DNA of 64,000 bases from Actinomycetes bacterium (GTDB lineage Bacteria; Actinomycetota; Actinomycetes; Streptosporangiales; Streptosporangiaceae), in assembly GCA_021793235.1 (NCBI GenBank), contig JAJYTD010000003.1, forward strand, positions 62,001-126,000, written 5' to 3'. The notes under the pieces are model-generated. The model was not told where the DNA came from. It saw nothing but the letters and a program-made list of their open reading frames with translations, and ran no database searches. Positions 269 to 16,809 of this stretch are shown here, piece by piece; position 1 is the stretch's first letter; each line of letters begins with the position of its first letter. A program made the translations under genes and the position numbers.

Positions 269-290
269 TCCGTTGCGGCCCTCCGCAAGT

Positions 291-966: not shown

Positions 967-1151
967 CACCGGGTACCGCCGTTGATCTCGGCGCCGACGG
1001 TTCCAGCCGCGCCCTGGTGCCGAGTCCAGTGTTCGGGGACCGGCCGCCAAGAATTACGAGTGATTGCGAAACCGCAGATCAGAGCCTAGCAGCAGGCCCG
1101 GTTCCCCGGGGTGGAGTCGGGGTTTTGCGCGCGGCGGTGGCCTGCAGTCTT

Positions 1152-1157
1152 TAGTCT
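1152..1157 (+). promoter_or_regulatory. -10 box for a leaderless jetA-like transcript
   Basis: TAGTCT is followed by 8 bases and then the GTG start at 1166. No Shine-Dalgarno sequence lies between, which fits leaderless transcription common in actinobacteria. The string TAGTCTGC recurs at 8103-8110, upstream of the ATPase gene. No clear -35 box was found. Confidence 0.45.
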
Positions 1158-1165
1158 GCTGAGTT

Positions 1166-1900
1166 GTGGGTGACTCAGCGAATCAGGTGACGACGGCAGC
1201 TGCGAGTGCCGGCGGAACGAGCGCGCCGGCGGGTGACGGCCCGGTGCCCCGGCACGGCCGCGCGGCGCTGCTGCGTCTGGCGAGCTGGTTCGACGCGGCG
1301 GATACCGAGACCGCGCACGAGATCTTCACCGCTGCTTTCGGGATCTATGGGGCCAGGCACCTCGGCGGGTTGGGCGAGGAGACCGTAGCGGCCACCACGA
1401 GCTGGTGGGATGCGCCGCTCGCGCACATCGCGGCCGCGCGTCTGACCAGCGCGCTGCCGACGGCTTGTGTACGGTTCCACAGAGACCAGAAGGCGCGGCT
1501 GCGCGATACGGCCGAGTCGTCCGCCCACTGGCGCCGATTGGCGGCTCAGGAGATCCGCCGTGTGCTGAACGGCCCCACGGAGGGCGATTCCCGGTTGCAC
1601 CTCTCCAATTCCGCCCTGGACGTGCTCATGGAGCTTCTCACAGCGGCTCTGGGATCCGGTGACGCCACCCGCGGCCCGGTGGCGGCCGGCGATCTCGAGC
1701 TTGATATCCGCCTGTATGTCCGCTACGCGCCCAGTGCTTCGATCATTGTGCGGGGAGCCGACGGCGAGCTCACTCTCGAAGGACTGCGGCTACAGGCCAC
1801 CTCGTTCGAAGCCGCCGAAGCCGCCTTCTCCGGCGAGGCCGAAACCGATTCCGGTGCGGCGCAGCCGGGGGACGGGGTGAGGCTGGTGCGCCACGCGTGA
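1166..1900 (+). CDS. JetA-like protein (TIGR02677/DUF2397), C-terminal half only
   Basis: The protein has 244 residues. From about residue 33 it matches, by recall, the C-terminal half of the TIGR02677 family: an ALLRLASWF helix, HEIFTAAFGIYGARHLGG, a TTSWWDAP motif, a helical stretch, and a final beta-rich segment ending DGELTLEGLRL. Family members are usually near 500 residues and act as the kleisin-like subunit of the SMC complex. Here about 250 N-terminal residues are missing and replaced by some 30 low-complexity Ala/Gly/Ser residues. No remnant is visible between 967 and 1165, where stops occur. The reading frame is clean and has its own promoter-like box, so this looks like a shortened, expressed gene rather than a decaying one. 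It is followed by jetB after 100 bases. Confidence 0.7.
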   Translation: MGDSANQVTTAAASAGGTSAPAGDGPVPRHGRAALLRLASWFDAADTETAHEIFTAAFGIYGARHLGGLGEETVAATTSWWDAPLAHIAAARLTSALPTACVRFHRDQKARLRDTAESSAHWRRLAAQEIRRVLNGPTEGDSRLHLSNSALDVLMELLTAALGSGDATRGPVAAGDLELDIRLYVRYAPSASIIVRGADGELTLEGLRLQATSFEAAEAAFSGEAETDSGAAQPGDGVRLVRHA

Positions 1901-2000: not shown

Positions 2001-3299
2001 ATGATGCCGAATGATGACGTCGCGCTCGTCGGGGAGCGCCAAGCGGCCGCACGGAGACTCATCGCCGACCCGATCGTCACCGCGCGCACCCATCCGGAGG
2101 AATTCGCGGTCATCCGGTCCCACTCCGACTGGCTGATCCAGCGGTTCCGACGGGTCCTGGGGTATGACCTGACGGTCGCCGCCGACTACGCCCGGCTGGT
2201 CAAGACAGGGCTCGTAGGATCTGTCACCCGGCCGCTCATCCGGGCCAGCGGTGCTCACTTCTCTCCGCGCACCTACAGTTACCTCGCCCTGTGCCTGGCC
2301 GCGCTGGTCGAGGCCCCGCAGCGGCTCTCCACGTCCAGGCTGGCAGCCGACGTGCACGCGGCCGCAGTGGAAGCAGGGCTGGACCTCGATCCGCGCGACC
2401 GGATGGGGGAACGCCGCGCCTTCATCGCGGCCCTGCGCCACCTCGCAGCATGGGGGGCGGTGACCGAGTATGCGGGCGCGCTGGCAGACCATGCCGTTGA
2501 CGGCACCGAAGAAGCGTGGCTGGAGGTGCACCACGACGTCGCCCGCCGCGTGGTGGCGCATCCGCCGCATTCGACCTCCGACCCGAAAGCCTTCGTTGAG
2601 CACATGGACGGCGACGATCCCGCGGGCGACATGGCGGGCGAGATCGCGCTGCGCCGGATGCTCGCTGAGACCGCCGTCGTCTACCGTGCGGACCTGTCCG
2701 AACGGCAGCGCGAGCGGCTCGGCGGCCATCAGTGGCGGGCGGTCGCCGAACTCGGCGAACTGCTCGGCTGCGATGCCGAGATCCGGGCGGAAGGCGTCGC
2801 GTTGATCATGCCCGACGATGCGGACGGCGAACGGGCCGTTGCCTTTCCCAGCGCGGACCCCATCGGCCAGGCGGCGCTCCTGCTGATCGAGCGGTTGATC
2901 GCACGGGTCCGCCCGGGGAACGGTCCAGTGGCCGAGGTCCCTGTTCCGCGCGAGGTGCTGGAAGCCGAACTGGCGGCGGTGATCGATCCCGGAGCCGAGA
3001 CTCAGCGCCGCTGGGCGCGCGCGGCGCTGAGTCACGTGCCCGACCCGGACGACTCCGCCTCGCGTGTGCTGCGGCTGCTGCGCGATGCTCGGCTCATGCG
3101 CCACTCCGTTGCGGTCGGCTCCGGAAGCGAGGGATGGAGTCTGCTCGCTGCGGCCGCCCGGTACGGTGGGCGGCCCCGCAACAGCGCTATCCCGGTAGGC
3201 GGCACCGGCAGGACCGGAGAGACCGGAGAGACCGGAGAGACCGGAGAGACCGGAGAGACCGGAAAGGGAGAAACGAGCAGAACGGGGAGCGGTACGTGA
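2001..3299 (+). CDS. jetB: JetB-like protein (TIGR02678/DUF2398)
   Basis: The protein has 432 residues and appears full length. The N-terminal block (ARRLIADPIVT, then HSDWLIQRFRRVLGYDL and an ARLVKTG helix) is the characteristic opening of TIGR02678, the KITE/MukE-like winged-helix subunit that binds the kleisin in JetABCD complexes. The start ATG is preceded by GGAGGAGGTG 8-10 bases upstream. The last 35 residues form a Gly-Glu-Thr repeat tail encoded by a 9-bp tandem repeat and are probably disordered. The gene lies between the shortened jetA-like gene and jetC in the usual order. All that is visible indicates an intact gene. Confidence 0.8.
   Translation: MMPNDDVALVGERQAAARRLIADPIVTARTHPEEFAVIRSHSDWLIQRFRRVLGYDLTVAADYARLVKTGLVGSVTRPLIRASGAHFSPRTYSYLALCLAALVEAPQRLSTSRLAADVHAAAVEAGLDLDPRDRMGERRAFIAALRHLAAWGAVTEYAGALADHAVDGTEEAWLEVHHDVARRVVAHPPHSTSDPKAFVEHMDGDDPAGDMAGEIALRRMLAETAVVYRADLSERQRERLGGHQWRAVAELGELLGCDAEIRAEGVALIMPDDADGERAVAFPSADPIGQAALLLIERLIARVRPGNGPVAEVPVPREVLEAELAAVIDPGAETQRRWARAALSHVPDPDDSASRVLRLLRDARLMRHSVAVGSGSEGWSLLAAAARYGGRPRNSAIPVGGTGRTGETGETGETGETGETGKGETSRTGSGT
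3212..3265 (+). repeat. 9-bp tandem repeat in the 3' end of jetB
   Basis: The unit GACCGGAGA occurs five times without change, followed by one copy with a single mismatch. It encodes (Gly-Glu-Thr)n. Because the unit is a multiple of three, copy-number change alters tail length but not frame. Confidence 0.95.
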
Positions 3300-3456
3300 G
3301 GGGAGATGCGCTCACCGGCGGCTCGGAACGTGAGCGGGGCGCCAGGTCGGGCGAACGATCCCGGGGCACTCACGGGATCCGGGACAATGACAGGACCGCC
3401 GCCGTCGGGTCCGCCCGGCGGCGCGGTACGGCCCGGTACGGATGGGAGGGCGGTCG

Positions 3457-6400
3457 ATGACCGACGCGGACGCGAATGAGCGAGCGGAGCCCTCGGCGCT
3501 GGTCGGTCACAGTCCCTCACGTAGCGGTGGAGCGGTGAGCGAAACCTATGGGGACAGGGCCGGTGCGGCCGGGCGGGCCGACCCCCCCTCGGAGAAGGGC
3601 GGACCGGACCGCTACCGCCTGCACCGGGCCGGGATCCACAACGTCTGGCAGTACGACGACCACGTCTTCCGGTTCGCGAACGGTCGGCTGCTGCTGCGCG
3701 GCCGCAACGGCGCGGGCAAGTCCAAGGCACTGGAGATGCTGCTGCCTTTCCTGCTCGACGGCGACGCCCGCCGCCTCGACACCACCGGGACCAGCAGGAC
3801 CAGCCTGCGTTGGCTGCTGCTGGACGGTCGCACGCCGGTTCCGGACGGCTCCGGCGCGAACGACGGCACCGACAACACCGACGACGCCGGCACCGGTTCT
3901 GCCACCTCCACCCTCGGCTACCTCTGGGTGGAGTTCCGCCGCACCCTTGAGAACGATGAGCCGCTGTGGCTCACACTCGGTGCGGCCATCACCGCCTCCA
4001 CCAGGGACGACGCACAGAGTGTGTTCTTCGCCACTGACCGGCGCATCGGCGTCGACCTGAACCTCGTCTCCGAGGGGCGGCCGATGCCCATCGACCGGCT
4101 CCGCACCGAGGTGGGCGCGGACAACTGCTACGACACGGCCGTGGCCTACCGTGCGCGGGTCATGCGGGAGCTGTTCGGGATCGACGATCCCGTGCGTTAC
4201 CGCAACCTCATCCATCTGCTGTACCGACTGCGCCGCCCCACTATCGGAGAGCGCCTTGAGGCGGGCGAACTCGTCTCCGTCCTCGCTGAGGCGCTGCCGC
4301 CCATGGACGAGCGCGTCCTTGACGAGATGGCACGCAACATCGCCGATCTGGAGGAGGCCCGTGCCCGGCTGAACGCACTGCGTACGGCCAAGGAGCAGGT
4401 GGCGTCGTTCCTCACCGACTACCGCGGTTACCTGCACGGCACCCTGCGCGGCCGGGTCCGTGCAGTACGGGAGCAGATCGAGGCCTATGAGCGGCGCGAC
4501 GCCGAGGTGGCGCGGCTGCGGGACGAACTCGACCGCCTCGTCACCGTTGAGAGCGCCGTGCAGGAGGAGCGCGATCGGCTGCGCCGCACCCGAGACACCG
4601 CCGCGTCCGACGCGGCGACGCTCTCGGCCGGCTCCACGGCGGCAGTCGCCGTCTCAGCGTATGAGCAGCAGGCGCGTCAGGCCGCCGTCGCCGCCTACAT
4701 CCGCGCGGCCGAGGCATCGTCAGCGGCCGCCCGCTACGCGCTGGAGACCGAGGAGCACGCCAAGCAGCAGCTCGCCGACGACCTCGCCGCGATCGACCGG
4801 GAACTCGCCGATCTGCAGCGTCTGCATGGCCGAACACTGGAGACGGCGCGCTTCGCCGGTATCAGCACAACAGGGTTCGGGCAGATACCGCATCCGGTAC
4901 CCACCACCCTTGCCCCGCGGGAGAGCGCCACTCACGTCGACATCGAGGGGCTGGAACAGGCTGTCGAGCGCGAGCCCGTCTCGGGGATCGACCTCGCGGA
5001 GCTGCGCGACAGGCTCGCCGAACTGCACGACCTGTTCGGTAAAGCGGACGAGGCGGCCGCAGAGCGCATCGAAACAGTGACCCGGCTGCGCGAGCGTGCC
5101 GCCCAGCGAGCCGCCGCCGAACGGCGCGAGGCCGCGCTCCAAAGCGAGGCGGAGGCCGCCGACACCGCGCTCGAACGCGCCCATGAACGAGAGCAGTCCG
5201 CTATCGAGGCGGTTCGTGCCGCCAGTGCCGACTACGCCGCCCGTGTCCGCGCGTGGAGCACGATGCTGCACGACACGGTTCCGGAGAACGACCTGGCGAC
5301 AGATCTCGCCGGACTGGAGGAGCACGTCGAACTGCCCCTCAACGACGCGCTGCGCGTGCTCGACGCGGACCTCCCCAAAGAGCTCGCGCGACGCGCGCAC
5401 GGCCTCGTCGACCCGCTGCTCCAAGAGCTGCGCACCCGCCGCGACACCGTGCTGAACGAGCAACGGGAACTTACGGCCGAACTGGAGGAGCTCTCCGAGC
5501 GCAAAACAGCGACCTCCGGACACATCGCCGCTCCCCAGCAGCCCTGGGCGGCGGCCGCACGCGACGAGACCACAGGGGTCCCCTTCTACCTCGCCGTCGA
5601 CTTCGCCCAAGACCTCACCGCAGCCGAACGCGTCGGCCTTGAGGCCGCCCTGGAAGCCAGCGGGGTGCTGTCGGGCTGGATGTCCGCGGACGGCTCGGTC
5701 ACCAGCGCGACAACCCGTGATCTGCTGCTGACACCGGGACGGCCGGCCAGGGGGCGCACTCTTCAGGACGTGCTCATCCCCGTGGACAATCCCGGCTCCG
5801 GCATCACGCACGGGGCGGTATCGGCCCTGCTGTCGTCGATCGCGCTGCTGCCCGCGCCGGGTGAGGAAGAGCCCGAGCCCAAGCACCGGCGCGACGCTCT
5901 CCCCCCCGACACGAGCGCGGTGTCGCTCGACGGCCGCTGGAGACTCGGTGTGGCCTCCGGCGCCCACAGCAAGTCGACAGCGGAGTACATCGGAAAGGCA
6001 GCTCGCGCCGAGACCAGCGATCGGCACCTGGCCAACATCGACCGCCGCATCGCCATCGCCGAAGCGCTCCTGGCCGAAGCGGACGAACGGTGCGGCGATA
6101 TCGAACGCCTGCACGCAGAACTCGTGGACATCGCACGCTCCGTGCCGGACGGCTCCGATCTCGCCGCCGCATGGGCCAGACTCGACAACGCCCGGTCCTG
6201 GCTGGCCGAAACCAAACGCGAGCATGATGCGGCCCGCAGCGCGGCCGAGACCGCCCGCGGTACCGCCCTCGGTCTGCGAGCGGAACTCGCGGCCCCCGCA
6301 GCCCGCTATGGTCTGCCGACTGGTGCGGACGAGCTGGACGACACCCGTGCGGCACTGGAGCGGCTGCGCAGCCAGGTCTTTGCCGCCCACCGCGGCCTGG

Positions 6401-7932
6401 AGGCCCTCGCCAAGACACTGGAGATCTATCAACGGCACGTCGCGGAATGGGAGCGGGCGCGCTCCGGGCGGATCCTCGCCGAGGACGTGCGCACCACGGC
6501 CATCAACGACATGATCACCGTCCGGCGCGAGATCGAGCTCACCGATCGCGCTCGTTCCGCGGCCCCGGAGCAGGTCCAGAGGGCGGTGAGCGAGGTCCGC
6601 GGGCGCATGGAGGGAGCGGCCGAACGCCTTCCCGAACTGGAGCGCCGGGCACAGCAGGCGCGAGATGACCGTGTCGCAGCCGAGACCCGGCTCGACACGG
6701 CCGTGTTCGAACGTGCGGGACAGGCCCGGCGTGCGCTGACCTCGGGGGCAGCGCTGCGTGAGATGATCTCGGCTCCCGATGGCAGACCGGATGCGGCGTT
6801 GCTCAGGGCAGCGGGCCTGCAGCAGATAGCAGACGTCGCCGGGCTGGGCGACACCGAGGACAAGGCGGACGGCGGACAGGAGGACACGCTCGCAGAGCGC
6901 GTCCGCGCGCTCGCCCTCCTCGTGGCCGCCCTGGAGGAAGGGCTCGGCCCCGATACCGGAACCGAGCTCGACAGCAGTGGGATTCTGCGTCGCCGCGAGG
7001 AGCTGCACCGGATGCTCGCCGCGAGCGACACCGTGGGCGCTTGGAGCGAACTCACCGAACCGGCCGGAATCAAACGCCTGACGATCCACGATGACGATGG
7101 CGCGCACGACATAACCGAGTACGCCGAGCACCTGGACCAGGCCATCGCCCAGGCGGAGGAGGCCGCTCTGCTGAGCGAGGAGGAGGCGTTCGAACGCCAC
7201 CTCCTCGGGGAGCTCGCCGGGCACCTCTCGCGGCAGATCGACGAGGCGCACGCCCTCATCTCCACCATGAACGACGTGCTGAGCGATGTCACGACCTCCC
7301 AGGGGCTGGGCGTGCGGCTGGACTGGCGCCTGGCGCCCGACGCGGACGAGGACGTACGAGCCGTTGTCCCGCTGCTGGCCCGACCAGCGGAGCAGCGCAC
7401 CCGGGTCGAGACCACGCGGCTGCGCGATGCCCTGCGGCGGTGTATCGAGGCGATCCGCCGGCTGGATCCCACGGCCACCAGCGGGGCCCAGCTTCGCGCG
7501 GCACTGGACTACCGCTCCTGGTTCGCCTTCACCGTCTACGTCACCGATGCGGCCCACCCCGATCGGGAGCGCCGACTCAGCCACCGCACGGCCCTCAGCC
7601 AGGGGGAGCAGCGGGTCGTCGCCTACCTGGTGCTGTTCGCCGCGGCAGCCGCCCAGTTCGGTTCCCTTGCCGCCCAGGCGCCTGGCGCACCCAGACTCAT
7701 CCTGCTCGACGATGCGTTCGCCAAGGTCGACGAGCCCACCCACGGCCGCCTCCTCGGCCTGCTGGTCGAACTCGACCTCGACTTCGTTCTCACGTCCGAA
7801 CGTGTGTGGGGCTGCTTCCCGAGCGTGCCGAGTCTGCACATCTACGAATGCCTTCGCGACCCCGCCGTTCCGGGAATCGCCACGCTCCACTTCACCTGGG
7901 ACGGCAATCGGCGGCGGCTCGTAGGCGTTTGA
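3457..7932 (+). CDS. jetC: JetC-like SMC/MukB-type ATPase (TIGR02680)
   Basis: The protein has 1491 residues. The ABC-type head is split around a long coiled coil. The Walker A motif GRNGAGKS is at residues 82-89. Long Ala/Glu/Arg-rich helices fill much of about 270-580 and 860-1230. The C-terminal half-head carries the signature LSQGEQ (1380-1385) and Walker B LILLDDAF (1414-1421), ending in a short beta segment. This is the TIGR02680 family, the loop-extruding motor of one Wadjet type, here somewhat longer than my recollection of the family (about 1350). The start at 3457 is chosen because GGAGGG lies 6 bases upstream; an ATG 15 bases earlier lacks such a site. All ATPase motifs are intact. 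The nuclease gene jetD (TIGR02679/DUF2399) that normally follows is absent. Confidence 0.85.
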   Translation: MTDADANERAEPSALVGHSPSRSGGAVSETYGDRAGAAGRADPPSEKGGPDRYRLHRAGIHNVWQYDDHVFRFANGRLLLRGRNGAGKSKALEMLLPFLLDGDARRLDTTGTSRTSLRWLLLDGRTPVPDGSGANDGTDNTDDAGTGSATSTLGYLWVEFRRTLENDEPLWLTLGAAITASTRDDAQSVFFATDRRIGVDLNLVSEGRPMPIDRLRTEVGADNCYDTAVAYRARVMRELFGIDDPVRYRNLIHLLYRLRRPTIGERLEAGELVSVLAEALPPMDERVLDEMARNIADLEEARARLNALRTAKEQVASFLTDYRGYLHGTLRGRVRAVREQIEAYERRDAEVARLRDELDRLVTVESAVQEERDRLRRTRDTAASDAATLSAGSTAAVAVSAYEQQARQAAVAAYIRAAEASSAAARYALETEEHAKQQLADDLAAIDRELADLQRLHGRTLETARFAGISTTGFGQIPHPVPTTLAPRESATHVDIEGLEQAVEREPVSGIDLAELRDRLAELHDLFGKADEAAAERIETVTRLRERAAQRAAAERREAALQSEAEAADTALERAHEREQSAIEAVRAASADYAARVRAWSTMLHDTVPENDLATDLAGLEEHVELPLNDALRVLDADLPKELARRAHGLVDPLLQELRTRRDTVLNEQRELTAELEELSERKTATSGHIAAPQQPWAAAARDETTGVPFYLAVDFAQDLTAAERVGLEAALEASGVLSGWMSADGSVTSATTRDLLLTPGRPARGRTLQDVLIPVDNPGSGITHGAVSALLSSIALLPAPGEEEPEPKHRRDALPPDTSAVSLDGRWRLGVASGAHSKSTAEYIGKAARAETSDRHLANIDRRIAIAEALLAEADERCGDIERLHAELVDIARSVPDGSDLAAAWARLDNARSWLAETKREHDAARSAAETARGTALGLRAELAAPAARYGLPTGADELDDTRAALERLRSQVFAAHRGLEALAKTLEIYQRHVAEWERARSGRILAEDVRTTAINDMITVRREIELTDRARSAAPEQVQRAVSEVRGRMEGAAERLPELERRAQQARDDRVAAETRLDTAVFERAGQARRALTSGAALREMISAPDGRPDAALLRAAGLQQIADVAGLGDTEDKADGGQEDTLAERVRALALLVAALEEGLGPDTGTELDSSGILRRREELHRMLAASDTVGAWSELTEPAGIKRLTIHDDDGAHDITEYAEHLDQAIAQAEEAALLSEEEAFERHLLGELAGHLSRQIDEAHALISTMNDVLSDVTTSQGLGVRLDWRLAPDADEDVRAVVPLLARPAEQRTRVETTRLRDALRRCIEAIRRLDPTATSGAQLRAALDYRSWFAFTVYVTDAAHPDRERRLSHRTALSQGEQRVVAYLVLFAAAAAQFGSLAAQAPGAPRLILLDDAFAKVDEPTHGRLLGLLVELDLDFVLTSERVWGCFPSVPSLHIYECLRDPAVPGIATLHFTWDGNRRRLVGV

Positions 7933-8137
7933 GGCCGCGGCGAGAACACTGAGCACACGGCGCCAACCGAACGGGCGGTGTGCCGCGTCTCAAGGCCGAG
8001 AGGCCCCCATGCGCGCGGGAGCACGGTTTTCCGGACAAGGGAGTCCGCCGGAAGACGGGCGGAGAATACGGTTCGACCTATCTGCTCTCAGCTGACCTGC
8101 TCTAGTCTGCAATGCAAGGTCGACATATAGAGCGGGT

Positions 8138-10258
8138 ATGGAGAAGACTTTGACGACGGCCCCTGCGACGTTCGCCGATGAGGCGCCGCGCCGGCCCGAG
8201 AGCGGCGCGGAAGCGGTCCAGTCCGTCCTCGTCCATCTGGCCACCTCTCCGCTCGATCCGGTGGCGCGGCAATGGGTGGCGGCGGCACTGGATAGCGACG
8301 AGGCTCTCGCCGCTGCCGTTCGCGGTGAGGATATCCGGCCACCGGCCTTCGACACGGGTACGGACGTATCGGGTGCGAAGCCGTGGAGTACAGCGGAGGT
8401 ACAGGCGCAGCGCGTCTACATCAGCCGCATCACCGTTCAAGGGTTCCGCGGCATCGGCCGTCCTGCGGTGCTGGAATTCGATCCGGGGCCGGGACTGACG
8501 GTGATCGTCGGCCGGAACGGGTCGGGCAAATCCAGCTTCGCCGAAGCGGCCGAAGCAGCGCTCACCGGTCGGAACCTGCGCTGGGACGGCATGCCCGCAG
8601 CATGGCGCGATGGCTGGCGCAATCTGCACTTCGACGAGCCCACCGAGGTCACCGTTGACCTCCAGCGCCCGGGGGAGGCCGCGCCCACGCGCGTCACCCG
8701 TACCTGGGCCGGGGACAGCGCGCGCTCGGCCCGAGGCGAGGTGGTCCACCCATCGGGTGAGGTCGCGCCGCTTCGCGCGTTGGGCTGGGGCGCCGACCTT
8801 GTTCGCTACCGCCCGTTCCTGTCCTACGACGAACTCGGCCGGGCCGTCACCGGCCGCGCGGCAGAGCTCTACGACACCCTGACAGCGCTTCTCGGCCTCA
8901 CCGACCTCGCCGAGGCCGAGAAGCGCCTGGCGAAGGCCTGTGACAAGCTCGCCAAGCAGCAGGAGCGCCCCGGACGCGACCTCGCCTACCTCGTCGACCA
9001 GCTGCGCGCCAGCGCCGATCCGCGGGCCCAGCGGGCGGTGGATCTGCTGACCGCCGACTCGATCGACCTCGACCGGCTGGCCGCCATCGCCGCCGACGAC
9101 GGCCCGGCGAACCCCGGGCAGCAGGTCGTACTGCGCCGCCTGCGCCGGCTCTCGGTTCCCGAGCGTTCCCTGCTGACCGATGTCGTCAACGAGCTCCGTG
9201 GAGCGGCCATGGAGCTCGCCATGGCCGCTGGAACCAAAGGCGACCGTGCCCGCGGCGTTGTGGAGCTGCTCCGCCAGGCGCTCGAACACCATCAGCGCCA
9301 CCCGGCCGAGACCGACTGCCCGACCTGTGGGGCCGGCGGTGCGCTGGGGCCCCAGTGGGAGGAGCGGGCCGCAGCCGAGATCGCCGCCCTCAGCCCCATG
9401 GCGGCCAGCGCCTCAGCGGCATACGAGCGCGCTGACAACGCCCGGGACCAGGCTCGTTTCCTGGTGGCTCCAATGCCGTCGTGGCTGCCCGCCGACAGCG
9501 AGCTCGGCCAGGTCTGGGCGCAGTGGGAGGCCGGAGCCGCGATCACTGATCTGAGTGAACTGGCCGACCACATCGATACGGTGGGGCGCCGGCTGCGCTC
9601 CACGGCGATCGCCGCACGCAAGGCCGCGAGCGCACGTCTGGATGATCCCACCGACGGGTGGGTCGGCCTCGCCGAGCAACTCTCCGCCTGGGTCGACGAC
9701 GCGCGCGCGTCGCTGCGCGCCCGTGAGATCCTGCAGCCGGCCGGGCAGGCTCTCCGGTGGCTCACCGGGCTGGCCAAAGAGGTGCGCAACGAGCGGCTGC
9801 GCCCTCTGGCGGCCCAGGCCGAACACGTCTGGCACCGGCTGCGTCAGGAGCGCCACATCGACCTGGAGGCGTTGCGTCTGGTCGGCCGGGGAGCGCAGAG
9901 GCGGGTCGCGGTGGACGTCGCAGTGGACGGGGTGGAGAACGACGGAAATGCGCCCGGGCTGCTCAGCCAGGGGGAATTCCAGGCGCTGGCGCTGTCGATC
10001 TGCCTGCCGCGCACGCTGGTGCCCGGCAACCCGTTCGGCTTTCTCCTGCTGGACGACCCCGTGCAGGCCATGGACACCGAGACCGTGGAAGGACTCTCCG
10101 CGGTGCTCGCCGAGGTGGGGCGGCACCGGCAGATCGTCGTGTTCACCCACGACACGCGGCTGCCGGACGCCCTGCGCCGACTAGGGCTGCCGGCGGTGAT
10201 CCGGGCCATCAACCGGGACGCGACATCTAACGTCTGGGTGTCTGATTCGGGGCGTTAG
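8138..10258 (+). CDS. RecF/Rad50-like AAA ATPase, orphan
   Basis: The protein has 706 residues. After about 90 residues of leader it shows a RecF/SMC-type head: beta strands ISRITVQGFRGIG, Walker A GRNGSGKS (125-132), a signature motif LSQGEF (609-614), Walker B LLLDDPVQAMD (636-646) and a D-loop/H-loop region ending IVVFTHDTRLP. The middle part is helical with a CPTC motif (Cys394, Cys397) that resembles half of a Rad50 zinc hook. It has no nuclease or helicase domain and no partner gene follows. It begins 205 bases after jetC, in the place where jetD would be expected. The family is an SMC-like ATPase of unknown role; defence or DNA repair is an inference from context. The start has only a weak GCGGG upstream, so it is uncertain. 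Confidence 0.75.
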   Translation: MEKTLTTAPATFADEAPRRPESGAEAVQSVLVHLATSPLDPVARQWVAAALDSDEALAAAVRGEDIRPPAFDTGTDVSGAKPWSTAEVQAQRVYISRITVQGFRGIGRPAVLEFDPGPGLTVIVGRNGSGKSSFAEAAEAALTGRNLRWDGMPAAWRDGWRNLHFDEPTEVTVDLQRPGEAAPTRVTRTWAGDSARSARGEVVHPSGEVAPLRALGWGADLVRYRPFLSYDELGRAVTGRAAELYDTLTALLGLTDLAEAEKRLAKACDKLAKQQERPGRDLAYLVDQLRASADPRAQRAVDLLTADSIDLDRLAAIAADDGPANPGQQVVLRRLRRLSVPERSLLTDVVNELRGAAMELAMAAGTKGDRARGVVELLRQALEHHQRHPAETDCPTCGAGGALGPQWEERAAAEIAALSPMAASASAAYERADNARDQARFLVAPMPSWLPADSELGQVWAQWEAGAAITDLSELADHIDTVGRRLRSTAIAARKAASARLDDPTDGWVGLAEQLSAWVDDARASLRAREILQPAGQALRWLTGLAKEVRNERLRPLAAQAEHVWHRLRQERHIDLEALRLVGRGAQRRVAVDVAVDGVENDGNAPGLLSQGEFQALALSICLPRTLVPGNPFGFLLLDDPVQAMDTETVEGLSAVLAEVGRHRQIVVFTHDTRLPDALRRLGLPAVIRAINRDATSNVWVSDSGR

Positions 10259-10266
10259 TAGACGGC

Positions 10267-10291
10267 CGGGAACGGTGCCGGGCCGTTCCCG
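10267..10291 (+). terminator. terminator of the orphan ATPase gene
   Basis: CGGGAACGG (10267-10275) pairs perfectly with 10283-10291 around a 7-base loop, starting 9 bases after the stop codon and followed by TCGATTT. Confidence 0.75.
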
Positions 10292-10296
10292 TCGAT

Positions 10297-10327
10297 TTGG
10301 CAGAGCACCCCTGAGGGCCTGTATAGT
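10297..10327 (+). promoter_or_regulatory. promoter of tRNA-Thr
   Basis: TTGGCA (10297-10302) and TATAGT (10322-10327) are separated by 19 bases, and the tRNA begins 52 bases after the -10 box. The spacing is slightly long, but the -10 box is strong. Confidence 0.6.
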
Positions 10328-10379
10328 CGTAACCAACGCAAGCGGCGGAACCCCTAGAGGGCGGAAGCCGCGCAAGTGC

Positions 10380-10455
10380 GCCCCTTTAGCTCAGTCGGCA
10401 GAGCGTCTCCATGGTAAGGAGAAGGTCTACGGTTCGATTCCGTAAAGGGGCTCCA
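10380..10455 (+). tRNA. tRNA-Thr (anticodon GGT)
   Basis: GCCCCTT (10380-10386) pairs with AAGGGGC (10445-10451); the discriminator is T10452 and the CCA at 10453-10455 is encoded. The anticodon GGT is at 10413-10415 in a 7-base loop. It bounds the accessory segment on the right. Confidence 0.96.
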
Positions 10456-10490
10456 CCACTTGATTGAGGTTCCGGTCCACTCAGGTGGGT

Positions 10491-10515
10491 GACCGGCGAA
10501 TCTCATTCGCCGGTC
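10491..10515 (+). terminator. hairpin between tRNA-Thr and tRNA-Met
   Basis: GACCGGCGAAT (10491-10501) pairs perfectly with 10505-10515 around a CTC loop. It probably ends the tRNA-Thr transcript or acts as a processing site. Confidence 0.65.
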
Positions 10516-10562
10516 TGTCCGGGTTCCGGTATCCTTGAGTAATTCCGGGTCTCGGAAACCGT

Positions 10563-10635
10563 GGCGGAGTAGCTCAGTCGGTAGAGCAAGCGGCTCATAA
10601 TCGCTGTGTCGTCGGTTCAAGTCCGGCCTCCGCTA
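10563..10635 (+). tRNA. elongator tRNA-Met (anticodon CAT)
   Basis: The acceptor stem is GGCGGAG with CTCCGCT (one terminal G-U pair), the anticodon CAT is at 10596-10598, and the T-arm contains GGTTCAAGTCC. CCA is not encoded. The paired first base and standard D-arm indicate the elongator rather than the initiator form. Confidence 0.93.
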
Positions 10636-10721
10636 CCGCCTGCGCGGCCCCTGTGTCGGATCAGGGGTCACCGCGGGTCTTTTTCAGTGTCCTGTGTAAC
10701 CAGCGAGAAAGGCACTCCGAC

Positions 10722-10886
10722 GTGGCTGTCACAGATGTGAGGCCGAAGATCACCCTGGCCTGCCAGGAGTGCAAGCACCGTAACTACATCACGCGGAAGA
10801 ACCGTCGGAACAATCCCGACCGTCTCTCGCTGAAGAAGTTCTGCCCCAACTGCCGGCAGCACACCGAGCACCGCGAAACCCGCTAA
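10722..10886 (+). CDS. rpmG: 50S ribosomal protein L33 (zinc form)
   Basis: The protein has 54 residues from a GTG start, with AGAAAGG about 9 bases upstream. It reads [17 protein letters not shown] at the start and has a second CPNC pair, giving the four-cysteine zinc ribbon of the C+ type L33. An upstream in-frame start would add 23 non-conserved residues and was rejected. rpmG beside MaoC-type dehydratase genes and upstream of tRNA-Trp, secE and nusG is a conserved actinobacterial arrangement. Confidence 0.95.
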
Positions 10887-10951
10887 GGTTTCGGGTTCTC
10901 GTCGGCGTGGCCGCCCTCGTGCGGCAGAGCCGCAGTGGTCTTCGCGTTCAT

Positions 10952-10980
10952 AGCCCAGTGAGCGACTCGCTCGCTGGGCT
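10952..10980 (+). terminator. terminator after rpmG
   Basis: A 13-bp stem (10952-10964 with 10968-10980, one wobble pair) with a 3-base loop is followed by ATTACTGTG. Confidence 0.75.
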
Positions 10981-11060
10981 ATTACTGTGTGGTGGTCCCT
11001 GTCTGATCAGGTCTGGTCAGGGACGCCGAACAACGGAGAACGCAGCGTGAGAGGGAGCCG

Positions 11061-11522
11061 ATGGCGATCAACCGGGACTGTCTGGGGCGGGAGTACGAGG
11101 CACCGCAACCCTACGAGGTGACGCGCGGCAAGATTCGGGAGTTCGCCAACGCCATCCAGGACCCGAACCCGTTCTACACCGACGTCGAAGCCGCCCGGGC
11201 CGCGGGTTACAAAGATGTCATCGCTCCGCCGACCTTCCCCATCATCATGGACATGGACGGTGTGGGGCAGGCCGTCGTCGATCCCGAGCTGGGCTTGGAC
11301 TTCTCGATGGTGGTGCACGGAGACCAGCGTTTTTGCTACAGCCGCCCCATGGAGGCCGGCGACGTCCTCACCTCGGTGACACGGATCTCCGGCATCAAAG
11401 CTCTGGGCGACAAGGAGATGCTGACGCTGGAGAGCGAGATCAGCACGGTCGGCGGTGAGCACATCGTCACTGCCGTGAACATGCTCTTCGTGCGCGGCAG
11501 TACCGACACGAGCGAGAAGTGA
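11061..11522 (+). CDS. HadA-like MaoC N-terminal (FAS1-like) dehydratase subunit
   Basis: The protein has 153 residues of the hot-dog fold UPF0336/MaoC_N type. It contains REFANAIQDPNPFYTD and a VVHGDQRF stretch typical of the family. In mycobacteria the homologous gene beside rpmG encodes HadA, the partner subunit of the (3R)-hydroxyacyl-ACP dehydratase; this subunit lacks the catalytic Asp/His pair. The following gene supplies the catalytic subunit 11 bases downstream, so the two probably form a heterodimer. Since this lineage is not expected to make mycolic acids, the natural substrate is open. GGGAG precedes the ATG. Confidence 0.85.
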   Translation: MAINRDCLGREYEAPQPYEVTRGKIREFANAIQDPNPFYTDVEAARAAGYKDVIAPPTFPIIMDMDGVGQAVVDPELGLDFSMVVHGDQRFCYSRPMEAGDVLTSVTRISGIKALGDKEMLTLESEISTVGGEHIVTAVNMLFVRGSTDTSEK

Positions 11523-11533
11523 GGGAGCCGCGT

Positions 11534-11962
11534 ATGACCGCCACTGTCCGCTACGACGAGGTCGAGGCCGGTACCGAGCTGCCCGAGCAGACGTATCCGG
11601 TACGCCGCGTCGACCTCATCCGGTACGCGGGGGCATCCGGCGATTTCAACCCGATCCACTGGAACGAGCGCACCGCCAAGGCCGTGGGGCTGCCCGACGT
11701 CATCGCGCACGGCATGTTCACTATGGCGCAGGCGGGCCGGCTCATCACCGACTGGGTGGGCGACCCCGGCGCCGTCGTCGAGTACGGGGTGCGCTTCTCC
11801 GCGCCGGTCGTGGTACCCGACGACGACAAGGGGGCCGAGATCACCGTTGGCGGTGTCGTCAAGGAGAAGCTCGGCGACAACCTCGTCCGGATCACCATCA
11901 CGGCCCGTTCCGGCGAAGCCAAGGTCCTGGCCCGTTCCACCGCTGTGGTCCGCCTATCCTGA
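11534..11962 (+). CDS. HadB-like MaoC dehydratase, catalytic subunit
   Basis: The protein has 142 residues. The hydratase-2 motif SGDFNPIHWN gives Asp37 and His42 as the catalytic pair, followed by AHGMFTMAQAG, typical of R-specific enoyl hydratases. The start at 11534 has GAGGGAG 6 bases upstream; a GTG overlapping the previous stop codon was judged less likely. It is translationally close to the HadA-like gene and probably acts with it on 3-hydroxyacyl thioesters. murB follows 73 bases later. Confidence 0.88.
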   Translation: MTATVRYDEVEAGTELPEQTYPVRRVDLIRYAGASGDFNPIHWNERTAKAVGLPDVIAHGMFTMAQAGRLITDWVGDPGAVVEYGVRFSAPVVVPDDDKGAEITVGGVVKEKLGDNLVRITITARSGEAKVLARSTAVVRLS

Positions 11963-12035
11963 CCCGATGCCGGCCTCCACAGCCCCCTGGCCGTCGGAGG
12001 CCGGCACCAGTTCTCATTCCCACCAGAGGTAACCC

Positions 12036-13103
12036 GTGTCCCCTGCGTCCGACCGCAACGTTTCGCTCGCCGACTACACCACTCTGGGCCTGGGCGGTCC
12101 CGCTGCGCGGTTTCACACCGCGGGCGATACCGACGAGCTGGTGGCCGCCGTGGCGGCGGCCGATGCCGTGGGCGAGCCACTGCTCATCCTCGGCGGCGGC
12201 AGCAACCTGGTGGTCGCCGATGACGGCTTCGACGGGACCGTCGTGCACGTCGACTCCCAGGGCACGGTGGTCGACACCGAGACCGAGGACCGCGTCCGCG
12301 TCAGGGTCGGCGCCGGTGTGGAGTGGGAACCCTTCGTGGCGTGGAGCGTGGACGAAGGACTGAGCGGCATCGAGTGCCTGTCCGGCATCCCCGGGCGTGT
12401 GGGGGCCACGCCGATTCAGAATGTCGGGGCCTACGGCCAAGACGTCAGCCAGACCATCGTCGAGGTCGTGGTCTATGACCGGCGGACCGGGAGGAGCCTG
12501 GCCCTGGGCAACGCCGACTGCGGGTTCGGCTATCGCGACAGTGCCTTCAAGGGCAGCGAGCGCTACGTCGTCTGCGAAGTCGTGTTCGAACTGACCCGGT
12601 CCCGGTTGAGCCGCCCGATCCGCTACGCCGAAGTCGCCCGGGCGCACGGGGTCGACGCCGGCGCGCAGGTGCCGCTGGCCGATGCCCGCGCGACAGTGCT
12701 GGGACTGCGCAGGAGCAAGGGCATGGTCCTTGACCCCGACGACCCGGACACCCGCAGCGCCGGCTCCTTCTTCACCAATCCGGTCCTCGGCCCAGAGGAG
12801 TTCACCGAGTTCCGCAAACGCGTTGCCGAGCGGCTCGGCCCGCAGGTGGAGCCGCCGGCCCATCCGGACGCAGAGGGGCGGATGAAGCTCTCCGCCGCCT
12901 GGCTGATCGATCGGGCCGGATTCGCCAAAGGCCATGGTGACGCAGCTCGGATCTCCACAAAGCACACACTCGCCCTGACCAACCCGGGCGGTGCCCGCAC
13001 CGAGGACCTGCTCCGGCTGGCGCGTGAGGTGCGTGCCGGAGTCGCGGAGGCGTTCGGAGTGACGCTGGTCAACGAGCCGGTCATGGTGGGCGTCGCGCTC
13101 TGA
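12036..13103 (+). CDS. murB: UDP-N-acetylenolpyruvoylglucosamine reductase MurB
   Basis: The protein has 355 residues from a GTG start with AGAGG 7 bases upstream. It reduces enolpyruvyl-UDP-GlcNAc to UDP-MurNAc with NADPH and FAD in the cytoplasm. Visible landmarks are the FAD-binding LILGGGSNLVV, the GIECLSGIPGRVGATPIQNVGAYG block, the catalytic RSAGSFF with Ser244 as the proton donor, and the C-terminal GHGDAARISTKHTLAL region. Length fits type I MurB. The gene sits downstream of the dehydratase pair and before a 383-base gap with a riboswitch. Confidence 0.97.
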   Translation: MSPASDRNVSLADYTTLGLGGPAARFHTAGDTDELVAAVAAADAVGEPLLILGGGSNLVVADDGFDGTVVHVDSQGTVVDTETEDRVRVRVGAGVEWEPFVAWSVDEGLSGIECLSGIPGRVGATPIQNVGAYGQDVSQTIVEVVVYDRRTGRSLALGNADCGFGYRDSAFKGSERYVVCEVVFELTRSRLSRPIRYAEVARAHGVDAGAQVPLADARATVLGLRRSKGMVLDPDDPDTRSAGSFFTNPVLGPEEFTEFRKRVAERLGPQVEPPAHPDAEGRMKLSAAWLIDRAGFAKGHGDAARISTKHTLALTNPGGARTEDLLRLAREVRAGVAEAFGVTLVNEPVMVGVAL

Positions 13104-13199
13104 CCGCGCACGCCCCAACGCCGGGCACACCAATTTTCTTCGGCTCCCCGAACTTTATTATTCGCCGTGGCCGCCAATTTTAATCGGCTGGGCAATGAA

Positions 13200-13227
13200 T
13201 TGCGCTCGAATGCGTTCCTGGTAAAGT
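13200..13227 (+). promoter_or_regulatory. promoter of the riboswitch-controlled transporter gene
   Basis: TTGCGC (13200-13205) and TAAAGT (13222-13227) are 16 bases apart. Predicted transcription starts a few bases before the aptamer core. The preceding 60 bases are unusually AT-rich for this genome, possibly an UP element. Confidence 0.55.
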
Positions 13228-13234
13228 CGAATTC

Positions 13235-13396
13235 ATCGAAGGGGAGTAGCCCTTGATTCATGCGGTCGACACACCGGCCCGCGTCCGCGCGTGCCCGGCC
13301 GCATGAGCCCCGCCGTCGGCGAGACGTTCCCGTACCGACGGCCAAACCGGTGCACGAGCTGTGATTCGGTGGGCGGGCGAGACTTTCGGTCCGGTA
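13235..13396 (+). ncRNA. yybP-ykoY type manganese riboswitch (candidate)
   Basis: The conserved L1 string GGGGAGTAGC is at 13241-13250, followed by a TTGATTCATGCGGTC segment. The closing L3-type string GCGAGACTTTCG is at 13377-13388 and can pair with the 5' CGAAGG. An internal hairpin around 13309-13333 (GTCGG...CCGAC) carries a second GCGAGAC. These are the hallmarks of the Mn2+-sensing yybP-ykoY aptamer. It lies directly upstream of a UPF0016/Gdt1 transporter gene, one of the gene families this riboswitch is known to control. Exact ends are approximate. Confidence 0.75.
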
Positions 13397-13486
13397 GGTA
13401 TTCACCGGATCGGAGTGCGGCGCCTGCTTTTCGCTTCCACCCGGTCCGCGGTGCAAAATCGCATCAGGTAAAGGGAGCGGGTTTCT

Positions 13487-14077
13487 GTGGGGTTCATTGC
13501 CGCATTCTCCATGAGTACGGCCGCCATTTTCTTCGCTGAAATGGGCGACAAGACCCAACTCGTGGCGATGTCCCTGGCGACGCGGTACCGCGTGGTGACA
13601 GTACTGCTCGGTATCACCGTGGCCACGGCTGCGGTGCACGGCGCGAGCGTGCTCATCGCCGAAGTCCTCGGGATGGCCATCCCTACCGATTGGGCCACCC
13701 TGGCCGCAGGCGTCGCGTTCCTCGTTTTCGGCGTGTGGACCCTCATCGGTGACGAACTCACCGAAAAGGACGAGGCGCGTGCGGCCTCCCGCCGGATCAG
13801 CTCCCCGCTCATGACCGTCTGCGCGGTCTTCTTCGTCGCCGAGCTCGGCGACAAGACGATGCTCACCACGATCACCATCGGGACGCAATACGACTGGTTT
13901 CCGGTATGGATAGGATCCACCGTGGGGATGGTGCTCGCCGACGGCATCGGGATCGCCCTGGGCGCCGCTCTCGGCAAGCGTCTGCCGGAACGCGCGGTCC
14001 AGATCGGTGCGGCGGCCCTGTTCTTCCTCGCCGGCGGCGCCCTGCTGCTGCAGGGCGTACGGATGGTCGCCGTCTGA
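13487..14077 (+). CDS. UPF0016/Gdt1-family cation (probably Mn2+) exporter
   Basis: The protein has 196 residues and about six membrane helices in two similar halves. Each half carries the family signature E-x-G-D-K-T: EMGDKT at 18-23 and ELGDKT at 119-124, which bind the transported cation. Homologues include yeast Gdt1, human TMEM165 and bacterial MneA, which move Mn2+ or Ca2+. The upstream manganese riboswitch supports Mn2+ export here. The GTG start has AAGGGAG about 10 bases upstream. It is probably induced when cellular Mn2+ is high. Confidence 0.9.
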   Translation: MGFIAAFSMSTAAIFFAEMGDKTQLVAMSLATRYRVVTVLLGITVATAAVHGASVLIAEVLGMAIPTDWATLAAGVAFLVFGVWTLIGDELTEKDEARAASRRISSPLMTVCAVFFVAELGDKTMLTTITIGTQYDWFPVWIGSTVGMVLADGIGIALGAALGKRLPERAVQIGAAALFFLAGGALLLQGVRMVAV

Positions 14078-14227
14078 GCCCTGCCGCCGATCGCGGCGAC
14101 TCGGCGAGAGGAGACCACGTATCGCCGAAGAACCGATCAGAGCCCGGCCATCGGGAAGCATGAGGCCGCTGAGCAGAGGACCAAGGGGCCGACACGGATC
14201 CGCTGCCCGCTGCCTGCCACCGAAGTG

Positions 14228-15250
14228 TCAATTCGGAGGGGTGGCCAGCCAGGTGTCCACACCGCTCAGCAGTTCCTTCTTCAGCGTGTCGGGTGCGGCG
14301 GAGCCGCGAATCGACATCCGTGCCAGCTCGGCGAGTTCGTCATCGCTGAAGCCGAATACTCTTCGGGCGATCTCGTACTGCTCGACCAGCCGGTGGCTGA
14401 ACAGCAACGGGTCGTCGGCGCCGAGCGCGATCGGTGCTCCGGCGTCGAACAGTCGGCGCAGCGGCACGTGCTCGATCTGGTCGACCACGCCGAGACTCAC
14501 GTTGGAGCTCGGGCAAAGTTCGAGTGTGACCTCTTGCGTGGCGATGCGCTCGACCAGATACGGGTCCTCTGCGGCGCGGACCCCATGGCCGATCCGGTGG
14601 GCTGACAGCTCGTCCAGGCACTCCCGGACGCTGCGCGGCCCCTGCAGCTCGCCGCCGTGCGGGGCCGAGAGCAGCCCGGCACGCTGGGCGATCCGGAACG
14701 CGCCCTCGAACTCCAGCGCCCGCCCGCGCCGCTCGTCGTTGTTGAGCCCGAACGAGACCACGCCGCGACCGGCGTACTGGGCAGCGAGGCGGGCGAGCGT
14801 TTTGGCGTCGAGAGGGTGCTTGGTGCGGTTGGCGGCGACCATGATGCCGATGGCCACGCCGGTCTCCCGTTCCGCGGCACGGGCGGCGTCGAGTATGAGG
14901 TCCAGGGTGGCGGTCAGGCCATCGAAGCGGGAGGCGTAGCCGCTGGGGTCCACTTGGAGCTCCAGCCACCCCGACCCTGCACACCGCTCTTCCTCGGCCG
15001 TCTCGCGCAGGAGCCGGTACACGTCCTCGGGTCGCTGCAGCACCGACCGTGCGATGTCGTATAGGCGCTGGAAGCGAAACCAGCCGCGTTCGTCGGTCGC
15101 TCTCAGCTTCGGCGGCCACTCCGAGGCGAGAGCCTGCGGGAGGTGTACTCCCCGCTGCTCGGCCAACTCCACGAGCGTCGTATGCCGCATGGAACCGGTG
15201 AAGTGCTGATGCAAATGGGCTTTTGGCAACTGGGCGATCGGGCGTTCCAT
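14228..15250 (-). CDS. adenosine deaminase-family amidohydrolase
   Basis: The protein has 340 residues. It has the TIM-barrel metal-dependent deaminase landmarks: PKAHLHQH with His14 and His16 as zinc ligands, an APHGGE motif with the catalytic Glu, RIGHG, LCPSSNVSLG and a GADDP block for the last metal ligand. Adenosine or a related purine is the likely substrate, consistent with purine salvage. The residue before the LH of the first motif is His rather than the usual Glu. The ATG at 15250 was chosen; a TTG 18 bases upstream is possible and neither has a strong ribosome binding site. The gene is convergent to the transporter gene and lies downstream of the aminotransferase gene on the same strand. 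Confidence 0.85.
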   Translation of the reverse strand: MERPIAQLPKAHLHQHFTGSMRHTTLVELAEQRGVHLPQALASEWPPKLRATDERGWFRFQRLYDIARSVLQRPEDVYRLLRETAEEERCAGSGWLELQVDPSGYASRFDGLTATLDLILDAARAAERETGVAIGIMVAANRTKHPLDAKTLARLAAQYAGRGVVSFGLNNDERRGRALEFEGAFRIAQRAGLLSAPHGGELQGPRSVRECLDELSAHRIGHGVRAAEDPYLVERIATQEVTLELCPSSNVSLGVVDQIEHVPLRRLFDAGAPIALGADDPLLFSHRLVEQYEIARRVFGFSDDELAELARMSIRGSAAPDTLKKELLSGVDTWLATPPN

Positions 15251-15359
15251 AGCCCAAGGGTGCCGCAAAGTGGGACGTGCCGCCGCACACTCGTGGCAAC
15301 CCGCATGCGGCAGTCGCTTTCCAGTGGCCTCCCGGCCGTCCCGAACAAGGAAGGCGCCG

Positions 15360-15375
15360 CCCCGCGGCAGCGGGG
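15360..15375 (-). terminator. hairpin after the aminotransferase gene
   Basis: CCCCGC pairs with GCGGGG around GGCA, within a longer GC-rich imperfect stem, about 30 bases after the stop codon in the minus direction. Confidence 0.45.
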
Positions 15376-15406
15376 CGGACCGGGGCCGGGCGGGTCTCCG
15401 TACGGC

Positions 15407-16615
15407 TTACTCGGCTTCGCTGAGCAGCTTCTGGATACGGCCGACGCCCTCGGCAAGGTCGCTGTCGCCGAGGGCGTAGGACAGTCGCAGGTAGCCGGGG
15501 GTGCCGAACGCCTCTCCCGGGACGACGGCGACCTCGGCCTGCTCCAGGATCAGCTCGGCGAGCTCACCGGAGTTCTGCGGGCGCTTGCCGCGAATCTCCT
15601 TGCCGAGCACCTCCTTGACCGACGGGTAGGCGTAGAACGCGCCTTGCGGTTCGGGGCAGAGGACACCGGGAATCTCGTTGAGCATTCGCACGATGGTCTG
15701 CCGACGCCGGTCGAACGCCGCGCGCATCTCGGCGACGGCGGAGAGGTCGCCGGAGACGGCCGCCAGCGCCGCCGCCTGGGAGACATTGGCGACGTTGGAG
15801 GTGGCGTGCGACTGCAGATTGCTCGCCGCCTTGATGATGTCCTTGGGGCCGATCATCCACCCCACGCGCCAACCCGTCATCGCGTAGGTCTTGGCCACAC
15901 CGTTCACCACAACGGTGCGGTCGGCGAGTTCGGGCACCTCCACCGGCAGGGAGCTGAACCGGGCGTCGCCGTAGACCAGGTGCTCATAGATCTCGTCGGT
16001 CAGCACCCACAGGCCGTGCCCGGCGGCCCACTGCCCGATCTCTCGGACCTGTTCGGGTGTGTACACGGCACCGGTCGGGTTGGAGGGCGAGACGAACAGC
16101 AGCACCTTGGTGCGGTCGGTGCGCGCGGCCTCCAATTGGTCGACGGTGGCGAGGTAGCCGGTGGACTCGTCGGTCACCACATAGGCGGGCACACCGCCCG
16201 CCAGCTTGATGGACTCAGGGTAGGTGGTCCAGTAGGGCGCGATGACGATCACTTCGTCGCCCGGGTCGAGCAACGTGGCGAACGCCTCATAGATGGCCTG
16301 CTTGCCGCCGTTGGTGACCAGGACCTGGGCGGGTTCCACCGCATAGCCGGAGTCGCGCAGCGTCTTGGCCGCGAGCGCCTCCTTGAGCTCGGGAAGGCCG
16401 CCGGCCGGGGTGTAGCGGTGGAAGCGGGGGTCGCGGCATGCCTGCGCCGCGGCCTCGACGATGTAGTCGGGAGTGGGGAAGTCGGGCTCCCCGGCGCCGA
16501 AGCCGATGACAGGGCGCCCGGCGGCCTTCATGGCCTTGGCCTTGGCATCCACGGCCAGCGTCGCTGACTCGGAGATGCCGCCGATACGTGCGGAGATACG
16601 GGGTCGGTCAGTCAT
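15407..16615 (-). CDS. aspC: pyridoxal-phosphate aminotransferase (aspartate aminotransferase type)
   Basis: The protein has 402 residues of fold type I. Motifs are [11 protein letters not shown] near the N-terminus, [22 protein letters not shown] for cofactor contacts, the Schiff-base lysine in [14 protein letters not shown], and a C-terminal LRLSYA with the carboxylate-binding Arg. This subgroup includes the aspartate aminotransferase encoded beside tRNA-Trp and secE in Streptomyces; by synteny that is the likely role (oxaloacetate plus glutamate to aspartate). The ATG at 16615 is preceded closely by GGGGA. A longer in-frame version adds 31 unconserved residues and was rejected. Confidence 0.9.
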
Positions 16616-16786: not shown

Positions 16787-16809
16787 GGGAACCACGCGGT
16801 ACCCATCGA

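Follow-up and report, generated by a model that had tools for sequence, protein, structure and literature searches.

In the sections of the published accounts that bear on this locus, RloC is described as a Rad50-like zinc-hook ATPase with a C-terminal anticodon nuclease carrying the motif R-X3-E-X36-52-H (PMC2610378); the nuclease domains of RloC and PrrC are treated there as HEPN domains, with the RNase of RloC regulated by its Rad50-like part (PMC3710099). Among SMC complexes, MksBEF of Pseudomonas is presented as likely to be JetABCD without JetD, with the kleisin N-terminus as the dimerisation part (PMC10586767), and in Corynebacterium the nuclease MksG is contacted by the kleisin MksF (PMC10123090). 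The stretch of DNA analysed here (the window; 64,000 nucleotides) carries genes that resemble parts of both kinds of machinery, set side by side in a combination for which we found no description in the open-access literature searched, itself only part of the literature. The relevant features are as follows.

1151..1161, + strand: promoter-like element TTAGTCTGCTG, starting 15 nt before the GTG of jetA' (leaderless-like)
1166..1900, + strand: jetA', C-terminal third of a Wadjet II kleisin (DUF2397), 244 aa, start codon GTG; PF09660 positions 300-482 of 483, E 2.5e-25; PADLOC JetA2 4.1e-37
2001..3299, + strand: jetB, KITE subunit (DUF2398/TIGR02678), full length; PF09661 7.6e-80, positions 1-362 of 363
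3442..7932, + strand: jetC, SMC subunit (TIGR02680), full length; 6.5e-254, positions 1-1356 of 1356, above the curated cut-off
8102..8112, + strand: promoter-like element CTAGTCTGCAA, starting 36 nt before the ATG of the ATPase gene
8138..10258, + strand: Rad50/RloC-like zinc-hook ATPase, 706 aa, ATG start, no internal stop (motifs, Pfam, model)
10380-10455, + strand: tRNA-Thr, downstream border (tRNA calls)
10563-10637, + strand: tRNA-Met, downstream border (tRNA calls)

The ATPase open reading frame is intact in the window over all 706 aa. Walker A (GRNGSGKS, residues 125-132), the hook motif CPTC (394-397), the signature SQGE (610-613), the Walker B/D-loop DDPVQAMD (639-646) and the H-loop histidine H671, after which the protein ends 35 residues later, are invariant in an alignment of 54 of the 80 ATPases available (the window plus 79 related loci), except for P395, which is nearly invariant, and T396, which varies. 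Pfam recognises SMC_N (2.5e-14) and AAA_23 (3.7e-11), and no nuclease domain is present among the nine families matched at E<=0.1; the first-pass annotation, which had read a Walker A, a signature, a Walker B and a CPTC half-hook without a nuclease, is borne out in this respect. The AlphaFold model (mean pLDDT 88.5) flanks the CPTC loop with helices on both sides, and its best structural matches are Rad50 and SMC heads (Pyrococcus Rad50, VIA Z 26.4, rmsd 4.0, 306 aligned), these matches spanning residues 92-706 and hardly covering the first 90. By motifs and model, the protein thus shares with RloC an ABC head with a CXXC zinc hook, zinc binding being putative; it differs in having no C-terminal nuclease domain, as the triad R-X3-E-X36-52-H is not found in a protein that stops so soon after its H-loop. 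Rad50/SbcC offers the nearest solved structures by fold and likewise has a zinc hook, but the window ATPase has shorter arms and no Mre11/SbcD-like nuclease gene is seen adjoining it. In a PADLOC run on the ATPase and the jet proteins, the top match of the ATPase was the mad3 model (2.1e-22), and it also matched an LmuB model (7.6e-17); neither LmuA nor LmuC is among the matches listed for the three jet proteins.

Upstream of the ATPase, the TIGR02678 and TIGR02680 genes named by the first-pass annotation are indeed present at 2001-3299 and 3442-7932. Its statement that the ATPase follows jetC directly stands as to order and strand, but not as to contact: the two genes lie 205 nt apart, without translational coupling, and a separate promoter-like element precedes the ATPase gene. 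Beyond tRNA-Thr and tRNA-Met lies a conserved chromosomal region, which we take to comprise hadA-like, murB, nusG and rplA genes. On the other side, a small predicted lipoprotein gene occupies positions 451-966, between tRNA-Tyr and jetA', and is present in 35/49 loci of the close group defined below at a median 46% identity. An Rfam scan of positions 1-20000 returned tRNAs only, and the ATPase/jetA'BC locus showed no effector gene.

A search for relatives of the ATPase gave 334 related stretches, of which the best 80 were kept, corresponding to 79 loci with flanks of up to 10 kb, often shorter. The idea of an orphan gene is thereby refuted: close relatives sit beside jetC and distant ones in two-gene modules. 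The close group (L003-L051) comprises 49 loci at 57-79% identity by best segment, from Nocardiopsidaceae and Allonocardiopsis, with the same surroundings. In 46 of these 49, a jetC that is complete or truncated by the end of its contig adjoins the ATPase gene, and jetB and jetA' are mostly also present where the contig reaches; the jetC-ATPase gap ranges from 39 to 1739 nt with a median of 127 (46 sequences, window included). Even in the Allonocardiopsis locus (L046), where the ATPase gene is inverted, it still adjoins jetC. Two of the three exceptions, L011 and L015, lie on contigs that end within 71 and 1,167 bases upstream. The third, L012 (N. endophytica), has no jet gene in 10 kb upstream of the ATPase; another genome, G189, probably also N. 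endophytica and with its ATPase at the same contig place, carries a close-type jetC on a second contig, 500 bases from its end, so that L012 may have been rearranged or wrongly joined at repeats. Repeat-like sequence occurs upstream of the ATPase at L012:8910-9539 and, in N. suaedae, at L015:2-600, and contigs tend to break there. Elsewhere (L173:2511-4642, genome G087), two ABC-transporter-like open reading frames within about 5 kb separate jetC from the ATPase.

The ATPase is carried by 40/40 genomes of one genus and, as the close type, by 71/297 genomes of an order sample, the 71 having been listed by hand; in a class sample, 56/345 genomes matched at 1e-30, 19 of these 56 being of the close type. 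Among the 71 close-type genomes, 34, the source genome included, have no DUF2399 match anywhere, and 37 have one somewhere at E<=1e-3, some of them weak or fragmentary. The proposed co-occurrence with jetBC in the absence of DUF2399 therefore holds for the close group (46/49 loci; 34/71 genomes) and fails for the distant relatives. By the same token, the prospect raised at the outset that homologues would mostly lie away from jet genes is true of the distant type (0/30 and 1/57 loci) and false of the close clade, and that of a gene resident at this tRNA locus without jet genes comes down to the single case of L012, on a contig perhaps rearranged at repeats.

Set against type II Wadjet, the window agrees in having a complete jetB and jetC in their customary order, the jetC translation keeping its Walker A, LSQGE and Walker B, and it differs in that only the C-terminal third of jetA remains (300-482 of 483 profile positions, short of the complete JetA of type II), jetD is missing from the genome and an ATPase gene is added. 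The source genome (4.8 Mb, 99.97% complete) has a single TIGR02680 gene, which is the jetC of the window. It gave no DUF2399 (JetD) match at E<=1e-3 in a search that matched 160/297 genomes, and no match at E<=1 to the N-terminal part of JetA (374 residues of a full-length JetA), a search with no separate positive control, although the same stretch does find itself in L046. JetD and the kleisin N-terminus thus seem to be missing from the source genome and not just unlinked. A JetD acting in trans in the source genome was accordingly set aside (0 DUF2399 matches), as was a jetA continuing through another start or an unlinked gene: no N-terminal match is found past the junction in the close loci outside L046, nor in the source genome, and in L024, where the frame stays open for 293 codons ahead of jetA', there is likewise no N-terminal match.

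Of the 49 close loci, 41 yielded a jetA, and all but one of these 41 have it truncated, the only full-length JetA (positions 2-480 of 483) being that of Allonocardiopsis, in whose genome (G079) the only DUF2399 match sits in an 83-aa open frame on a different contig. In a JetC tree built from 10 of 47 close JetC proteins and 21 from other loci, the 14 reduced-operon rows (12 distinct, as two duplicate pairs are included) form one clade with support 100/99, and the tree places it together on one side with L178, L190, L179 and L186, i.e., loci with full-length JetA; in the first three of these (genomes G017, G203 and G063), jetC is closely followed by a DUF2399 match. With this tree, like that of the ATPases, midpoint-rooted only, our reading of these comparisons is that JetD would have been lost first and the kleisin N-terminus later.

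The distant relatives of the ATPase, overall at about 34-47% identity, are of a different build. The 30 loci of the first distant group (L052-L081; 36-42% identity) encode ATPases of about 800-850 aa that continue for about 130 residues beyond the end point of the window protein, and in this extension R32 and H109 are invariant and E36 nearly so (24 of 30 domains aligned; X72 spacing). Directly 3' of the ATPase gene, a small protein of about 125 aa is encoded in 29/30 loci, the exception being at a contig end, and in 56/57 further distant-type places, at least six of which are the same loci as among the first 79 (zero-length tree pairs), the exception being a broken copy; it is found in none of the 49 close loci, nor in the window. 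From the class sample, 30 regions were used of 37 non-close matches, with seven partial or split matches omitted (G326, G364, G391, G428, G455, G525 and G582). An alignment of 27 small proteins from the 29 loci, two near-copies being left out, has R36, E40 and H91 invariant, i.e., R-X3-E-X50-H. The model of the small protein (pLDDT 89.3, a prediction) has a HEPN fold by its best structural match (2hsb, Z 14.3, rmsd 2.4, 114 aligned), and 11 of its 25 best structural rows are titled HEPN, in a class of helical bundles that can reach Z of about 14 by common arrangement alone. Foldseek gave no match at E<=0.001 (best 0.048), a PDB sequence search nothing relevant, and no curated-level family match was obtained in Pfam (4 examples), NCBIfam (2) or PADLOC (2), the AAA_35 Pfam match of one small protein (E 0.12) being at chance level. 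The small partner is thus a predicted HEPN protein and putative RNase. When its profile was compared with that of the C-terminal extension in the distant ATPases, the R-X3-E stretches of the two were aligned in a weak match (17.9% probability, E 0.0013).

By sequence, the distant family resembles RloC, from which it differs in the longer spacing (X72) of its C-terminal R-X3-E...H and in a second, separate HEPN-like protein; the R-X3-E-X50-H of that small protein agrees with the RloC triad as published (PMC2610378). One locus, L135 (6502-8875), has an ATPase that ends near the end point of the window protein, yet the small HEPN-like gene follows. In a first tree of 109 ATPases, in which long branches meet at L135, this row stands closest to the close group (SH-aLRT 90), and a smaller core tree of 43 of those again joins the two (88/83, not starred). 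The C-terminal domain may accordingly have been lost first and the HEPN partner later, with L135 as a possible intermediate, the direction of HEPN loss being inferred under midpoint rooting. Jet genes are near distant-type ATPases in 0/30 and 1/57 loci, the listing for the 57 places using JetC above 120 bits, JetB above 30 bits and JetA at E<=1e-4. The one case (L131/L172) sets the ATPase and the HEPN-like protein with full-length jetA, jetB, jetC and jetD (DUF3323 + DUF2399) beside type I restriction genes; since it is not adjacent to the close group in either the ATPase or the JetC tree, it is evidence that these genes can come together in a defence island and no evidence on the origin of the close group. 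The two-gene module (L052-L081, L112-L153, L157-L171) comes mostly from actinobacteria, with a few metagenome-assembled genomes labelled Acidobacteria and Dormiibacterota, and its ATPase is broken or shortened in L153, L157, L158, L159 and L171.

In the window, the jetA'BC unit and the ATPase unit share a promoter-like element. A TAGTCTGC-type element stands ahead of most jetA' and ATPase genes and of no jetB or jetC. Counting from 300 nt upstream to 30 nt downstream of the start codon, with the window as one sequence, TARTCTGC precedes the ATPase in 31/49 sequences (33-43 nt from the start in 30) and jetA' in 31/41 (13-14 nt from the start in 29), and precedes jetB in 0/42 and jetC in 0/44; over all 50 sequences (1.03 Mb), it matches 64 times, the reversed pattern 8 times. 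Within two mismatches, CTAGTCTGCTG precedes the ATPase in 32/49, jetA' in 39/41, jetB in 0/42 and jetC in 0/44. As the related loci that served for counting had also supplied the consensus, these counts are not independent, and those for jetB and jetC and for the genome are the better controls. The window holds two YTAGTCTGC sites, at 1151 and 8102, where 0.44 are expected (at least two occurred in 5/100 shuffles), and the source genome holds three YTAGTCTGCWR sites, two of them at this locus, against four for the reversed control. The third (L191:1470-1480, contig C41) lies between a helix-turn-helix-regulator-like gene and a short open reading frame. TARTCTGC is absent upstream of jetA and of the ATPase in L046, and from 29/29 distant loci examined. 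The actinobacterial -10 box is TANNNT; the element fits such a box by its letters, and its rarity argues against a plain housekeeping one. No SOS-box-like pattern occurs near the jetA' or ATPase start, the 65 matches in the window (49 expected, sd 7.1) all falling outside 1-2698 and 7811-12514, and a sigma-70 scan of 7800-10700 found nothing.

The rates of change of the two units differ. By the Nei-Gojobori method, with GC bias and neutral background unmodelled, the ATPase has an omega of 0.22-0.27 between the window and the first eight relatives in the list, where jetC has 0.26-0.40, jetB 0.31-0.44 and jetA' 0.31-0.48; over all pairs with dS 0.1-1, the medians are 0.33, 0.44, 0.57 and 0.56 and the maxima 0.68, 0.90, 1.03 and 1.33, respectively. 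Median amino-acid identity to the window is 68% for the ATPase, close to that of murB (70%), and 55% for jetA', 53% for jetB and 58% for jetC, which thus evolve faster than the ATPase. The Walker A pattern is retained in 48/50 close ATPases and in 38/47 extracted close JetC proteins, some of the nine misses being contig ends or broken assemblies, and the signature pattern in 49/50 and 46/47, respectively.

Our best reading of these sequence comparisons is that the ATPase is an RloC-like protein whose RNase parts were lost and which became tied to a Wadjet without its nuclease and half its kleisin. We lean, with some reserve, towards seeing the ATPase and the reduced jetA'BC as a conserved, probably co-regulated chromosomal module of the Nocardiopsidaceae, put together from two defence machines that are now both nuclease-less. 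Two former defence machines would thus have lost their cutting parts and been turned into a DNA-handling pair. On the Wadjet side, the losses would comprise the nuclease, perhaps the part at which it docks, and the double motor in its linked form, while the C-terminal end of the kleisin, JetB and JetC would be kept: without JetD, the complex could presumably not cut plasmids in the Wadjet manner, and without the kleisin N-terminus, JetC would no longer form a linked dimer-of-dimers. The joint loss of JetD and the kleisin N-terminus is coherent with the contact between MksF and MksG and with the dimerising role of the kleisin N-terminus. On the RloC side, the RNase would have disappeared and its Rad50-like regulator remained. 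The arrangement proposed for the window genes is akin to MksBEF of Pseudomonas in being a nuclease-free SMC complex from a Wadjet-like ancestor; MksBEF, of a different subtype, retains the entire kleisin and is not known to have a Rad50-like partner. By analogy, the module may serve in DNA tethering or sensing for chromosome maintenance. A more specific version, which we put forward tentatively, is that the JetC motor and the Rad50/RloC-type ATPase form one chromosome-handling complex, nuclease-free and fixed in the family core, in which the ATPase replaces the kleisin N-terminus as dimeriser or bridge. The adjacency in 46/49 loci and its survival of the L046 inversion, the 40/40 spread, the shared element and the low omega support a single module; the lack of translational coupling between jetC and the ATPase, the faster evolution of jetA'BC with omega about 1 in some pairs, the lack of jet genes in L012, the absence of the element from L046 and the Walker A misses in JetC count against it.

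The locus might instead still act against plasmids or phages, with JetBC and the ATPase recognising invading DNA and either using an unlinked host nuclease or tethering the intruder, a role we regard as doubtful. Both halves seem to derive from defence machines, the ATPase has one distant relative whose neighbours are a full jetABCD set and type I restriction genes, and a DUF2399 match exists somewhere in 37/71 close-type genomes; however, defence systems are usually patchy in distribution, whereas the ATPase is in every genome sampled of one genus and the close loci share the same surroundings, no effector gene is seen at the locus, and 34/71 genomes are without any DUF2399 match. Two sensors or motors devoid of effectors, a shared element and presence throughout a genus would make a domesticated DNA-handling module likelier than defence.

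Two decayed defence systems that merely lie side by side at a tRNA locus, functionally unlinked, would be consistent with the flanking tRNAs, the truncated jetA, the loss of jetD and of the HEPN parts, and the separate promoter-like elements; the faster evolution of jetA'BC and an omega near 1 in some pairs also fit slow decay. We nevertheless hold this to be unlikely, as the ATPase motifs are retained in nearly all close copies, omega is well below 1 for most pairs, adjacency survives inversion in L046, and one rare promoter-like element is common to both units. Least credible, and very improbable in our judgement, is the ATPase as a true substitute for JetD that takes DNA over from JetBC and recruits an external nuclease or RNase. 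In favour of this are its place at the position of jetD and a genome without JetD, and the first-pass annotation had named a replacement of JetD as one possibility, but such a replacement of the effector finds no support in a protein with no nuclease domain and no partner gene seen at its locus, which is oppositely oriented in L046 and whose distant relatives are nearly always without Jet neighbours.

On the preferred reading, of a domesticated module derived from two defence machines, the locus touches the open question of how SMC complexes of defence and of housekeeping are converted into one another. It appears to record a stepwise loss of the nuclease system on the Wadjet side, from full JetA in Allonocardiopsis to truncated JetA in the other close loci, and an apparently stepwise disarming of the ATPase, from two RNase-like parts to one (L135) to none (window). 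The search also brought to light, as a by-product, a mostly actinobacterial two-gene module of an RloC-like ATPase and a predicted HEPN protein. As the family includes the cultivable Thermobifida fusca (L007), it would provide a direct test system for a disarmed, Wadjet-derived motor.
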